This document shows, piece by piece, positions 35,883-42,985 of a stretch of DNA of 64,000 bases (within the stretch, counting starts at the first letter, position 1; every line of letters starts with the position of its first letter). Both the position numbers and the translations under genes were made by a program. This stretch comes from Pseudomonas sp. BN102. GTDB taxonomy: Bacteria; Pseudomonadota; Gammaproteobacteria; Pseudomonadales; Pseudomonadaceae. The notes beneath the pieces were generated by a model. That model made no database searches and was not told where the DNA came from. It saw nothing but the letters and a program-made list of their open reading frames with translations. The stretch spans positions 62,001 to 126,000 of the forward strand of contig NZ_SSON01000072.1 of assembly GCF_029871245.1 (NCBI RefSeq). The letters are read 5' to 3'.

Positions 35883-39406
<3,524 letters not shown>

Positions 39407-39473
39407 GTGGAGCGGGAAATAGTTAATGTCCACTGCGGACAAAGTTAACTTCCTTCCCTTTCCTTGATACAAG

Positions 39474-39506
39474 CCCCGGTAGATCGAGAGGTCTACCGGG
39501 GTTTTT
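39474..39506 (+). terminator. terminator of gyrB
   Basis: CCCCGGTAGA and TCTACCGGGG form a perfect 10-bp stem with an 8-nt loop followed by TTTTT, 68 bp after the gyrB stop. A further imperfect inverted repeat, AGTTAA...TTAACT with inner TGTCC/GGACA, lies at 39421-39450. Confidence 0.92.
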
Positions 39507-39513
39507 CATTCTG

Positions 39514-40590
39514 ATGGAGGAGGACCTATTCCACTCCGGTCTCCTACTATCGAGCCAACGACATTCTGGATATCGGCTACGGCAGCCATGCACCAGGGCT
39601 GGCACCTGGGCTTGGCCGGCCTAGCGCATCACACCAGGTGACTCGCTGAATTCGGACAATCAGGAACTCGAACAGCTGGAGGATCTTCGGAGAGCTTGGA
39701 CCGATCAAGGGGACCCTCGGGCAAGACTCGCCGAGTTGAATCCACCTTGGGAGTACCTTCATGAGGAGCGTTTTACACGGAAGCATTGCGCGTCTGTCGC
39801 TACTACGCTCTGCGCCTGTGTCGCGCTGGAGATGCTACCTACCCACGCAACATGGATGGCTGACGCGGAACGGCAGACACCTGCGCGGGCTCGGGCGGCT
39901 GAGGTGATCTAGGGCCTGAAGGCCCAGGAGCAGTCTGGTCGGGTTATTCCCCCTGTCATGATTCCATTGCCAGCCCTTCCATCGACCCATGTGCCAGAGG
40001 CTGTGGAAACACCTTCACTCCCGCTGCGGGAACCAGAGGTTGTGGCAACTGTTCCCCAGGCAGAGCCCGTTCAGGTTAACTGGGCTGCGCCGACACCTCC
40101 GGCGTTTCCGAATGACTCCCAGTTACCCTCGCCAGAGGTGGCCATCACAGCGCCGGCAAAGGTTTGGCGCCGCGCGTCTCTTGAGGGCACCTAGGCCATC
40201 GAGGATGGCAGCTACTCGATGGACATCGAACAGGACGGAGACGATCTGGTTGCCGTCGACTCGAACAAGCGGTCGATCTAAAAGAAGCAAGGTGGCGGCA
40301 GTTACCAGTTCTATAATCCGAATACCGGTTCCACGTTCTCGCTGCGCTTCCTCGACGAGCGCACAGTTGAAGCGGATCCTGCGCCGTCTGCCGGCACGCC
40401 CAGCATCTTGAAACGGGCGGAGGGGCAGGCCGCAGCTGAGTCTTCGACTGTGAACGAAACCTATGCGGCAATCGCGTAGCGCTACAACGAGTTGGCTCAG
40501 AGCGATACAGATAACGCGCAGGCTTGGACGATGTGCTCAGCGGTAGCGTTCAAGCGCAGCCTGTCCGCTGGGGAAGACTCCTTCTGGTAA
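39514..40590 (+). pseudogene. decayed gene of unknown function after gyrB
   Basis: No intact gene fills this 1.1 kb, but fragments read like protein. One frame gives YYRANDILDIGYGSHAPG near 39545. The frame at positions 1 mod 3 gives GDSLNSDNQELEQLEDLRRA (about 39640) and, after a frame change, EALRVCRYYALRL (about 39780). It later gives a proline-rich linker (39958-40190), a segment with YSMDIEQDGDDLVAVDSNKR, one with SYQFYNPNTGSTFSLRFLDE, and finally NAQAWTMCSAVAFKR ending at TAA 40588. In-frame stops occur at 39622, 39910, 40192, 40279 and 40477. I do not recognise the family. The stops at 40192 and 40477 are TAG, each one C-to-T step from CAG. Confidence 0.6.
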
Positions 40591-40658
40591 GTCGAAGTCA
40601 CCCACAGGAACCTGGGGAGCGCTGGGCCTTACCTCTCCAGATCGGGGCCGCTGCTGGA

Positions 40659-40689
40659 GGTAACAGGATGTGTGACACAGAGTGTTACC
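40659..40689. promoter_or_regulatory. palindromic activator site upstream of the small RNA promoter
   Basis: GGTAACA (40659-40665) and TGTTACC (40683-40689) form a perfect inverted repeat with a 17-bp spacer, so the half-sites are 24 bp apart. It lies about 120 bp before the -24 element at 40808, the usual place for a sigma-54 enhancer. From memory, sites of CbrB, which activates crcZ, also contain GTTAC/GTAAC half-sites. Confidence 0.6.
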
Positions 40690-40774
40690 TTGTCCTTGCC
40701 CCAGGATTGGCCATGCGAGTCGTAAGGGAACAGTTTCGTACCCTGGTCAGGGCCTTCAGAGCATGATTATTTTA

Positions 40775-40787
40775 TAAATCATTGATT
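40775..40787 (-). promoter_or_regulatory. IHF consensus within a 23-bp palindrome
   Basis: On the minus strand AATCAATGATTTA matches the IHF consensus WATCAANNNNTTR at every defined position. It is the centre of a perfect palindrome, TTTATAAATCA-T-TGATTTATAAA (40771-40793). Its place between the activator site and the -24/-12 promoter is typical of IHF-bent sigma-54 promoters. Confidence 0.6.
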
Positions 40788-40807
40788 TATAAAGGTTTTG
40801 TATTTTA

Positions 40808-40823
40808 TGGCACGACTCATGCT
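40808..40823 (+). promoter_or_regulatory. sigma-54 promoter of the candidate small RNA
   Basis: TGGCACGACTCATGCT matches TGGCACGNNNNTTGCW at 15 of 16 positions counting the spacer, with GG at 40809-40810 and GC at 40821-40822. It predicts a start at about G40834. Confidence 0.85.
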
Positions 40824-40833
40824 CTATATATGG

Positions 40834-41187
40834 GACAACAACAACAAAAAGCTTCAAGAAGAAATATTTCGACTCTGACAAAACAAAAACAACAGGCCAG
40901 AGAAGAAGCAAACCGATTTTTTTGGAAAGGGTGTGCCATTCCGCACCCGGTGACTGGAGCAACATAACAATAAAACTACCTCAAGGTAGCGGCGCTCTGG
41001 TTGGTTCAATTGATGACGATGGCATGATCAGCGTCCAAAAAAATCTGTTTGCCCTGGATCCATTTGGGATCAGCCAATTCTGGCTCGCTAGCAGCCAGTA
41101 GCGAAGAACAACAACGAACACTCGAATAAGAACAACAACAATAAAGAAGAAACATTTGAGGGGAGCTTAGGCTCCCCTCAGTGCTTT
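40834..41187 (+). ncRNA. CrcZ/CrcY-like small RNA that may sequester Hfq-Crc
   Basis: A predicted RNA of about 350 nt with no ribosome-binding site. It starts GACAACAACAACAAAAAGC and has AAnAAnAA motifs at 40837-40847, 40856-40863, 40885-40892, 40966-40973, 41104-41114 and across 41125-41153. It ends in the perfect hairpin GAGGGGAGC-TTAG-GCTCCCCTC (41158-41179). Multiple A-rich motifs, a sigma-54 promoter with an upstream activator palindrome and a GC-rich end hairpin are the features of CrcZ, CrcY and CrcX, which bind Hfq/Crc and relieve catabolite repression. CrcZ itself normally sits behind cbrB, which is not here. The middle part (40922-41100) can also be read as a short protein-like frame. 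Confidence 0.72.
41158..41187 (+). terminator. terminator of the candidate small RNA
   Basis: A perfect 9-bp GC-rich stem with a TTAG loop, followed by AGTGCTTT. The T-run is weak, so termination may rely on the stem strength. Confidence 0.7.
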
Positions 41188-41346
41188 CCGCCTCCCGCAA
41201 ATTCGTGACTTCCAGTCTTCCTCTTCTCGGTCCCAGGGCACGCTGGCGCGCGTTTGTCGTGTGACCATGGGGGGGTGGCCGCCATTACGTGGGAATCGTA
41301 GTCTGGGAGCGATCCATGGGCCCTGTAGGGCCTGCCGAGGAGCAGG

Positions 41347-41541
41347 ATGATGGAAGAGAACAATGAGCAGTCTGCGATCTCCGATGAGGAGATCAGCGCC
41401 TACATGATGCGTCAGCTACGTTCCGGCCGGGTGAAGCCCGCAGTGCTGGTGGTGCTGACCGAGAAGACCTTTCCCGACGTGGAGCGCGAGCGGATCATCC
41501 GCTGCTTCAACGCCCTGGATTCCAGGTATCTGAAAGGTTGA
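41347..41541 (+). CDS. small protein of unknown function
   Basis: A 64-residue acidic-to-neutral cytoplasmic protein, MMEENNEQSAISDEEISAYM at the start and FPDVERERIIRCFNALDSRY near the end. GAGGAGCAGG just before ATG 41347 is a good ribosome-binding site; the next codon is also ATG. Codon use and GC match the chromosome, unlike the AT-rich stretch before it. I do not recognise the family. Possible role unknown. Confidence 0.65.
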   Translation: MMEENNEQSAISDEEISAYMMRQLRSGRVKPAVLVVLTEKTFPDVERERIIRCFNALDSRYLKG

Positions 41542-41593
41542 GCCAGGACGCCGGCGGGAAATCGTTATGCACTTTTTCGCTTAGCCTTAGCGC

Positions 41594-41651
41594 GATTTAC
41601 AAAGCCTTGTAAATCAGCGCTTTAACCGGCATTTTTGGCAGTTCGCCAAAA
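41594..41651. terminator. paired hairpins after plsC
   Basis: Two stems lie in the 134 bp between the small gene and the acyltransferase gene: GATTTACAA-AGCC-TTGTAAATC (41594-41615), extendable by CGC/GCG-like flanks, and TTTTGGC-AGTTC-GCCAAAA (41633-41651). They sit 3' of the minus-strand acyltransferase gene and could end its transcript. Confidence 0.5.
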
Positions 41652-41675
41652 TCTTGTTAACAGTTTATCCACAGA

Positions 41676-42440
41676 TCAGGCCGGTTGGTCGACGGTCGCT
41701 GCGGATTGCGGGCCTTCCAGTTCGCGCTGAGCTGCTTCCACCCAGGCGAAGGCGCGGTCGTTCAGCGCAGCGATGGCGCGTGGGCCCTCCCCTTCGGCAT
41801 ACATCGGCGGGCCGATGATCACCTGGATGGTGCCCGGGTGCTTGGCCCAGCCTTCCTTGGGCCAGAAGGTGCCGGCGTTGTGGGCCACCGGTAGTACCGG
41901 AAGCTGGGCATTGACCGCCAGTGCGGCGCCACCACGGGAGAATTTGCCCATCTGGCCAGCCGGCACGCGGGTCCCTTCGGGGAAGATCAGTACCCAGGCT
42001 CCCTGCTTGAGGCGCTCATCCCCCTGGCTGGCAAGCTGCTTGAGGGCAGCCTTGGGATTGCTGCGATCGATGGCGATGGGTTTCATCAGCGCCATGGCCC
42101 AGCCGAAGAAGGGCACGCGCAGCAGTTCTCGTTTGACCACCTGGCTGAGGGGCTCGAACGCTCCGGAGAGGAAGAAGGTCTCCCAGGTGCTCTGGTGCTT
42201 GGCAAGGATCACGCAGGGCCGCTCCGGCACGTTTTCCAGGCCCTTCACCTCGTAACGGATGCCCACCATCACCTTGGCCAGCCAGACGGCGAAACGGCAC
42301 CAGCGCCAGACGATGAAGCGGTAGCGGGCGCGGAAGGGCATGAAGGGTGCGAAGAAGAGACTCAACGTGCCCCAGATGAATGCGCTCAACGATAGCAACA
42401 GGTAAAAGAGGAAAGTTCTGGTGGCCTGCACTGTCGTCAT
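41676..42440 (-). CDS. plsC: 1-acyl-sn-glycerol-3-phosphate acyltransferase
   Basis: A 254-residue membrane-bound acyltransferase of phospholipid synthesis, acylating lysophosphatidate. An N-terminal membrane helix (TFLFYLLLSLSAFIWGTLSL) is followed by the HxxxxD-type motif KHQSTWE and the FPEGTR substrate motif. The catalytic box reads H-Q-S-T-W-E. The H-x4-D/E position therefore ends in Glu. Start ATG 42440. This is the PA0005 (lptA) position of P. aeruginosa. A DnaA box ends 3 bp from its stop codon. Confidence 0.9.
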   Translation of the reverse strand: MTTVQATRTFLFYLLLSLSAFIWGTLSLFFAPFMPFRARYRFIVWRWCRFAVWLAKVMVGIRYEVKGLENVPERPCVILAKHQSTWETFFLSGAFEPLSQVVKRELLRVPFFGWAMALMKPIAIDRSNPKAALKQLASQGDERLKQGAWVLIFPEGTRVPAGQMGKFSRGGAALAVNAQLPVLPVAHNAGTFWPKEGWAKHPGTIQVIIGPPMYAEGEGPRAIAALNDRAFAWVEAAQRELEGPQSAATVDQPA

Positions 42441-42454
42441 GGGAGCTGTTGACC

Positions 42455-42985
42455 TTATTGAAGGAGATGCGCGGCGACCGCCGCCAGATCGTCGAATACC
42501 AGGGTGCCCGCTGGCAAGGGCTTGGCCAGGGTCCGTTCGCCCTTGCCGGTCTTCACCAGAACGGGCTGACAATCGACGGCAAGCGCGGCGTCCAGGTCAC
42601 CACTGCTGTCGCCGACGAACCAGATACCAGCAAGGTCCACGCCATAGTGCTCGGCAATACGCTTGAGCATACCGGGGCGCGGCTTGCGGCAGTCGCAGCC
42701 ATCGTCAGGACCATGCGGGCAATGCACGATCAGGCCGATTTCGCCGCCCTGCTCTGCCACCAGTTCACGCAGGCGTGCATGCATGGATTCCAGGGTGGCC
42801 AGGTCGTAGTAACCGCGTGCGACGCCGGACTGGTTGGTGGCCACGGCCACGGTCCAGCCGGCCCGGCTCAGGCGGGCGATTGCGTCGATAGAGCTGGGAA
42901 TGGGGATCCACTCTTCGAGCGATTTGATGTACTCGTCGGAGTCCAGGTTGATGACACCGTCGCGATCAAGAATCAGTAGTTTCAT
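42455..42985 (-). CDS. gmhB: D-glycero-beta-D-manno-heptose 1,7-bisphosphate 7-phosphatase
   Basis: A 176-residue HAD phosphatase for ADP-heptose synthesis (LPS inner core). DRDGVIN (8-14) is the nucleophile motif, TNQSGVARGYY matches motif II, CPHGPDDGCDCRKPRPGM is the zinc-binding loop with three Cys and one His, and VGDSSGDLDAA motif IV. Located 14 bp upstream of plsC. Confidence 0.93.
   Translation of the reverse strand: MKLLILDRDGVINLDSDEYIKSLEEWIPIPSSIDAIARLSRAGWTVAVATNQSGVARGYYDLATLESMHARLRELVAEQGGEIGLIVHCPHGPDDGCDCRKPRPGMLKRIAEHYGVDLAGIWFVGDSSGDLDAALAVDCQPVLVKTGKGERTLAKPLPAGTLVFDDLAAVAAHLLQ

Follow-up and report, generated by a model that had tools for sequence, protein, structure and literature searches.

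A CrcZ-family small RNA between gyrB and plsC in Pseudomonas sp. BN102 and its relatives, a probable second Hfq-Crc decoy

Introduction

What does the AT-rich gap between gyrB and plsC of Pseudomonas sp. BN102 encode? An initial annotation of this DNA, made from the letters alone, had proposed an unannotated CrcZ/CrcY-like small RNA, which could be an extra or a relocated member of the family, or a new Hfq decoy. CrcZ of P. aeruginosa carries six A-rich stretches and titrates Hfq via the distal face of the protein (PMC4063720, excerpt). We ask whether the RNA beside gyrB belongs to this family, to which of its lineages it belongs, and what it would do next to CrcZ.

The stretch analysed, referred to as the window, comprises 64,000 nucleotides. 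A plsC scan gave Pseudomonas sp. BN417 (99%) as the nearest named relative, together with P. resinovorans DSM 21078, P. boanensis DB1, sp. BN411, sp. JM0905a and xwS3 (labelled P. taiwanensis). P. resinovorans is placed in Metapseudomonas by the NCBI taxonomy, and the window's genus is probably this Metapseudomonas group.

Family membership, motifs and fold

In the covariance-model search suggested by the initial annotation, window positions 40835-41212 (+) matched the Rfam model of CrcZ (RF01675) from end to end (model positions 1-398) with 205.2 bits and E 2.3e-55, the gathering cut-off being 95 bits. CrcZ was the sole match over cut-off when the entire 64 kb were compared with Rfam by cmscan. 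The previously proposed extent (40834-41187) is close to the Rfam match at its start and falls short of the Rfam alignment at its end. The coordinates of the RNA, its internal elements and its surroundings are compiled in Table 1.

Table 1. Features of the gyrB-plsC region of the window (positions of the 64,000-nt stretch)
Feature	Positions	Strand	Evidence or remark
gyrB, upstream landmark	36986..39406	+	
Broken gene (remnant, outside the RNA)	39826..40578	+	tblastn with the 323-aa ORF of G006; stops
GTAACA, reverse-type CbrB subsite (predicted), at -175	40660..40665	+	exact match to the R subsite of PMC6296734 (excerpt)
TGTTAC, forward-type CbrB subsite (predicted), at -152	40683..40688	+	
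Conserved GTCGTAAGGGAACA block	40719..40732	+	GGAACA kept in 16 aligned genus copies
IHF-type site TAAATCATTGATT (pattern YAANNNNTTGATW)	40775..40787	+	at -60
Sigma-54 promoter TGGCACGACTCATGCT	40808..40823	+	GG-N10-GC at 40809-40822; GG at -26
CrcZ-family small RNA	40835..41190	+	RF01675; Rfam alignment extends to 41212
5' cluster of Hfq/Crc-type A-rich motifs	40837..40893	+	AAnAAnAA at 40837, 40856, 40882
Central long-range stem, 5' arm	40908..40926	+	consensus fold of 19 sequences, columns 79-97
A-rich motif between the central-stem arms	40966..40973	+	AAnAAnAA
Central long-range stem, 3' arm	41034..41052	+	consensus fold, columns 212-230
3' cluster of A-rich motifs	41104..41151	+	AAnAAnAA at 41104, 41125, 41134, 41144
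3' hairpin, probable transcript end	41158..41179	+	perfect 9-bp stem, paired in 19/19 aligned sequences
Conserved 64-codon ORF	41347..41541	+	tblastn match in 17/17 other genus genomes
plsC-type acyltransferase, downstream landmark	41676..42440	-	PF01553, E 5.7e-27

Where at least six AAnAAnAA clusters had been noticed, we counted eight non-overlapping ones; dinucleotide shuffles contained 0.97 on average, and eight were reached in 0 of 1000. AANAANAANAA occurs eight times on the two strands of the window, always within the RNA, and none of 100 window shuffles had eight. In the 14 gyrB-side copies of the genus the number of motifs is 6-8, compared with 6 in the 18 crcZ genes of the genus. The RNA also stands out by composition, as had been remarked before: G+C is 41.7% at 40751-41100, whereas the ten remaining blocks of 39001-42850 range from 54.9 to 65.4%.

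The 3' hairpin (GAGGGGAGC-TTAG-GCTCCCCTC) is indeed perfect, with nine of nine pairs formed. The T-run 3' of it is weak on the plus strand, and a terminator scan of this strand reported no site at the hairpin. The predicted fold of the whole RNA has -104.4 kcal/mol (z -4.5). A consensus fold was derived from 19 sequences of the gyrB lineage (an alignment without L025, a near-identical copy, and without G032, P. flexibilis, G316 and G075); it comprises 65 pairs, 17 of which show at least one two-sided, pair-keeping change, and has the 3' hairpin closed. The mean predicted unpaired probability is 0.89 in the motifs versus 0.38 elsewhere, a difference that comes without a composition-matched control and carries little weight.

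A protein translated across 40834-41100 was named in the initial annotation as an observation that would speak against an RNA, and we examined the TTG-initiated ORF at 40922-41101 (59 aa) in this respect. It has no Pfam match, and when 16 genus copies were aligned, stops interrupted it in 14, so that it is open only in the window and its near-identical sister; we rejected it as a coding gene.

Two further reading frames flank the RNA. The gene after gyrB is decayed, as previously described, with four in-frame stops and 52% identity across 258 positions to a 323-aa ORF of G006. This relative (L115) is intact, has by eye a lipoprotein-like start and matches neither Pfam nor NCBIfam. Downstream, between the RNA and plsC, lies an intact 64-codon ORF that the initial annotation did not mention; it also occurs in genomes without the RNA, has neither a Pfam nor an NCBIfam match, and is possibly an unannotated small protein.

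Distribution

The 6.48-Mb genome of BN102 holds two CrcZ-family members. Canonical crcZ (L001) is in place between cbrB and pcnB, so that the copy beside gyrB is an extra family member, one of the origins considered initially. Among 18 genomes of the genus, 12 contain two members, two contain three and four contain one. A copy between gyrB and plsC was found in 14 of the 18, on the gyrB side of plsC at a distance of 0.43-0.68 kb. In three of the genomes without it (G004, G009, G017), 75-97 bp separate gyrB from the match to the 64-codon ORF, behind which plsC lies. In the fourth, G008 (L107:1-2503), the DNA before the ORF is unlike that of G009 and has no gyrB match for about 2.5 kb; a further insertion, of about 2.5 kb or more, lies at the same place, without a CrcZ-type copy detectable by blastn. 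In the crcZ part of the tree, the four genomes fall outside the group formed by the 14.

Across the wider family, under stricter filters, a CrcZ-family match was present in at least 391 of 398 genomes. About 60 genomes were examined for the address of their copies. In 38 of these, chosen by hand for copy number and genus spread so that the count is not a frequency, three (G032, G149, G307) share one contig between gyrB and an adjacent copy. In a fourth, G080 of another genus, a copy adjoins plsC and is preceded by an Nmad3 match. One gyrB-side copy is present in P. flexibilis ATCC 29606, and in G316 one copy, among the matches listed, converges on gyrB. The P. flexibilis copy (L152:7877-8219, minus strand; 146 bits) is motif-poor and has no sigma-54 box at the usual place; it is perhaps decayed or differently driven. 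Two genomes of another genus (g10; G026 and G064) contain four family copies each, which group together on the CrcZ side of the tree and suggest duplication within that genus.

The RNA match lies at 7.4-9.8 kb in five genomes that consist of one or two contigs. If these records start at dnaA, the gyrB-side RNA would be close to the replication origin and its gene dosage would rise in fast growth. Among the papers listed by a literature search and the excerpts consulted, none placed a CrcZ-family RNA beside gyrB, which we do not take as absence from print; in an excerpt of PMC13086519, gyrB appears as a marker gene only.

Promoter and upstream sites

A GGCAY-N7-GC box with its GG at -26 to -32 precedes 101 of 102 family loci (at -26 in 92), the exception being P. 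flexibilis. The pattern TGGCACGN5TGC has one match in the window, and 37 of 100 shuffles give one too, so that the evidence lies in the position of the sigma-54 box. Twelve of the 14 genus gyrB-side copies carry an exact match to YAANNNNTTGATW, which we take as the IHF consensus, at -59/-60, and 16 of the 18 genus crcZ genes have one upstream. This strict pattern precedes only 4 of 33 cbrB-linked crcZ genes outside the genus and is missing from both island copies described below, and is therefore not universal in the CrcZ family; of 29 copies at other addresses, 16 have it. A shuffled 250-bp upstream region is expected to contain 0.002 matches to the IHF pattern and 0.10 matches to the two CbrB subsites combined.

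In P. putida, TGTTAC and GTAACA are CbrB subsites, and IHF assists CbrB at crcZ and crcY (PMC6296734, excerpt). Thirteen of the 14 genus gyrB-side copies have TGTTAC at -149 to -152, and it also precedes all 18 genus crcZ genes and all 33 other cbrB-linked copies. GTAACA is found in exact form at -173 to -184 of 11 of the 14; it was absent in this form from the remaining three, from both island copies and from all five gyrB-side copies examined outside the genus. In the crcZ of BN102 itself, TGTTAC is at -151 and GTAACA at -130; the gyrB-side copy differs from this in the order of the subsites and in a third one, for which the GTCGTAAGGGAACA block, possibly a degenerate CbrB subsite, is the candidate. 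The GGAACA within this block is retained in 16 aligned genus copies, most of the DNA around it not. The same applies to the promoter region as a whole: the sites are conserved across these 16 copies and much of the DNA between them is not. In most of 11 relatives compared, the DNA from gyrB to the promoter is largely unlike that of the window, with the distances of the sigma-54 box, IHF site and TGTTAC fixed. The -12/-24 boxes described for A. vinelandii crcZ precede its first A-rich motif by 13 and 25 nt, and the CbrB sites are near -125 and -145 (PMC5429807, excerpt); these published spacings agree with those of the gyrB-side copy.

Lineage and address

In a tree of 101 rows, 51 cbrB-linked copies and 10 others (61 rows) are split from the remaining 40 rows with support of 100/99, and the gyrB-side copies belong to the 40-row set. 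A clade of 20 (99/98) unites 19 of the 21 gyrB-side and island rows with one more copy from G307; the two rows outside it are G032 and P. flexibilis. A single clade of all 21, G032 and P. flexibilis included, is borderline in the AU test (p-AU 0.0545). A second tree of 113 rows, for which L031, L033 and L096 were replaced by the longer loci L219, L218 and L225, is compatible with one clade of the gyrB-side copies when the long-branched G032 and P. flexibilis are left aside (p-AU 0.285). One locus, L102, was left out of both trees; its promoter is still counted above.

The addresses were compared by clustering the flanks of 45 loci that are not cbrB-linked. Nineteen lie at a hydroxymethylglutaryl-CoA lyase gene (identified by profile in 2 of the 19 loci), seven at gyrB/plsC and six at a third locus, which may be CrcX; the remaining 13 form a trio, pairs or singles. 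PP3540 of P. putida is presumably this lyase gene. An excerpt of PMC6296734 lists crcY as PP3540b, and we refer to the 19 as CrcY-locus copies. In the 113-row tree, the gyrB-side copies share their side with all CrcY-locus copies except one. The latter are not a clade themselves: a single clade was rejected, partly owing to L129 (G064), which is on the CrcZ side. The gyrB-side copies are on the tree side of the CrcY-locus copies, in a lineage of their own. Trees and flanks together indicate two well-separated sides of the CrcZ family and one recurring address beside gyrB. The window copy, which is off the CrcZ side and lies between gyrB and plsC, is distinct from crcZ and has another address than CrcY; it is either an old paralogue or a moved CrcY-type gene.

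The second of these possibilities, that the RNA is CrcY (or CrcX) at a new address, the same lineage with different neighbours, is the one to be taken most seriously. The gyrB lineage adjoins a group of non-genus CrcY-locus copies (94/79), all further copies in the 18 genus genomes are in the gyrB-plsC interval, and no sampled genome with a gyrB-side copy was seen to have a CrcY-locus copy too. On the other hand, the flanks cluster apart, the gyrB-side copies fit a clade of their own once the two long-branched rows are removed, and a joint clade of gyrB-side and CrcY-locus copies was rejected, in a test weakened by the CrcY-locus row L129 on the CrcZ side. We hold this explanation to be tenable, if somewhat doubtful.

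The gyrB-plsC interval

Genomes vary in what separates gyrB from the RNA, both in the size of this filler (1.0-3.6 kb in 12 measured) and in its content. An Nmad3-type gene (PF18754 in G016; L119:2436-3287) recurs in it: of the 14 genus gyrB-side loci, 11 gave a tblastn match to it upstream of the RNA. The match spans nearly the whole gene in nine of them and a part of it in G005 and G001; the loci of G000, G015 and G002 had none. The interval is also a hotspot of insertion: in G001 and G007, gyrB and plsC are 38 and 45 kb apart, respectively, with a third CrcZ-type copy in between in each. The G007 island (L158, L112, L113) carries Tn7-like genes, encoding a TnsA-like protein (below the Pfam cut-off), a Mu-type transposase C-terminal domain, TniB and TniQ; that of G001 (L160, L110, L161, L111) encodes type I restriction-modification and the primase-helicase of a TOTE conflict system. 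A TOTE-type helicase end is also present in G007 (90% identical) and, in another genus, between gyrB and the RNA of G149, where it is 77% identical to that of G001; this likeness suggests that interval and RNA travelled or descended together. Near the third copies of G001 and G007 are ORFs of 387-398 aa without a Pfam match, which resemble each other by eye. Neither the Nmad3 gene nor the 387-aa island ORF matched NCBIfam. In xwS3, the interval contains an rsmX RNA (L148:8178-8278, minus strand; 68.8 bits, cut-off 56) about 1.6 kb upstream of the CrcZ-type RNA, so that decoys for two global RNA-binding systems adjoin.

One may speculate that the RNA is a further old Hfq-Crc decoy lineage that was retained in an island hotspot near the origin and in part spread together with it, the islands of two genomes bringing or carrying another CrcZ-type copy. 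Mobile DNA would then possess a switch of its own for the carbon repression of the host and for the availability of Hfq. The TOTE and third-copy data favour such a connection without showing it, and we consider it improbable. If the link were true, mobile DNA would carry decoys of global RNA-binding proteins as cargo.

In an interval so rich in debris, the RNA could instead be a decaying, non-functional remnant. A broken gene lies directly upstream, the copy is absent from 4 of the 18 genus genomes, and that of P. flexibilis is motif-poor and devoid of the sigma-54 box. Within the genus, however, the RNA and its regulatory sites are kept while the filler turns over, the 14 copies have no fewer motifs than the 18 crcZ genes (6-8 versus 6), and not one of the 14 has lost the sigma-54 box or most of its motifs, which makes decay very unlikely. 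Another idea is that the RNA is a CbrB/sigma-54-driven leader, or the start of an operon, for the 64-codon ORF, which follows on the same strand about 170 nt past the hairpin, behind a weak terminator. We find this very unlikely: the four genomes that lack the RNA still have the ORF, directly behind gyrB in three, so that the ORF does not depend on the RNA; moreover, the hairpin is kept in 19 aligned copies and the Rfam model spans the RNA alone. Finally, a moved or recently duplicated crcZ, arisen within the genus from the cbrB-linked gene (the relocation considered in the initial annotation), would explain the Rfam family and promoter layout common to both copies but is hardly credible with canonical crcZ still between cbrB and pcnB, the 51 cbrB-linked copies split off at 100/99, and a single clade of all 34 genus copies rejected at p-AU 4.2e-6, barring gene conversion or model error.

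Proposed function

The protein partners of such an RNA are encoded in the BN102 genome: an Hfq gene is present, cbrB adjoins canonical crcZ, and Crc is L214 (E 4e-150 to PDB 4jg3, catabolite repression control protein). Two other PF03372 candidates for Crc were discarded, L213 being exonuclease III and L215 having no PDB match at E 1e-20. Together with the full-length model match and the promoter layout of the family, these genes bear out the CrcZ/CrcY-like character that the initial annotation had recognised.

We conclude that the RNA between gyrB and plsC is very probably a second CrcZ-family decoy of a lineage distinct from CrcZ, presumably driven by CbrB and sigma-54, that would sequester Hfq-Crc and add to the effect of CrcZ. 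According to this proposal, a poor carbon supply would activate CbrA/CbrB, and CbrB would bind near -150 to -175 upstream of the gyrB-side RNA. IHF would bend the DNA at -60, and sigma-54 RNA polymerase would start at about position 40835. The resulting RNA of ~350 nt is predicted to fold with its A-rich stretches open in two clusters; these would occupy the distal face of Hfq (with Crc) and release the mRNAs of catabolic genes from repression. The second decoy would share both the input (CbrB) and the target of CrcZ, and would add to it as CrcY does in P. putida, where CrcY and CrcZ were described as sequestering Hfq/Crc, apparently in a dose-dependent manner (PMC12533007, excerpt).

The surprise is moderate, because redundant CrcZ-type RNAs of this family are already known in other pseudomonads; new here are the address and the lineage. 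In this sense the notion of a new Hfq decoy holds for the lineage and not for the family, which is that of CrcZ. For studies of catabolite repression in the P. resinovorans group, deletion of crcZ alone would leave a second decoy, and the four close relatives without a gyrB-side copy provide a natural experiment.

Comparison with known systems

CrcZ (RF01675), known from P. aeruginosa and relatives, shares with the gyrB-side RNA the length class, the A-rich Hfq motifs, the layout of a sigma-54/CbrB promoter and the 3' hairpin. It differs in sitting behind cbrB, on the opposite side of the tree. The covariance score is 205 bits for the gyrB-side RNA and 333 bits for the crcZ of BN102, the lengths matched by the model being 378 and 399 nt.

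CrcY of P. putida and A. vinelandii is, like the gyrB-side RNA, a second family member beside CrcZ, and is driven by CbrB and RpoN, as predicted for the RNA described here. CrcY-locus copies are found at the hydroxymethylglutaryl-CoA lyase gene, from which the gyrB-side RNA is separated by its flanks. In A. vinelandii, crcY is located between Avin04820 and Avin04790 (PMC5429807, excerpt); as far as seen, CrcY adjoins gyrB in neither species. CrcX of P. syringae is a third family member with the same proposed function.

RsmX, RsmY and RsmZ, which bind RsmA-type proteins through GGA motifs, follow the same logic as the CrcZ-type decoys, with unrelated sequences. There, too, several RNAs are under the control of a two-component system and act by titrating an RNA-binding protein (PMC8871633, excerpt).
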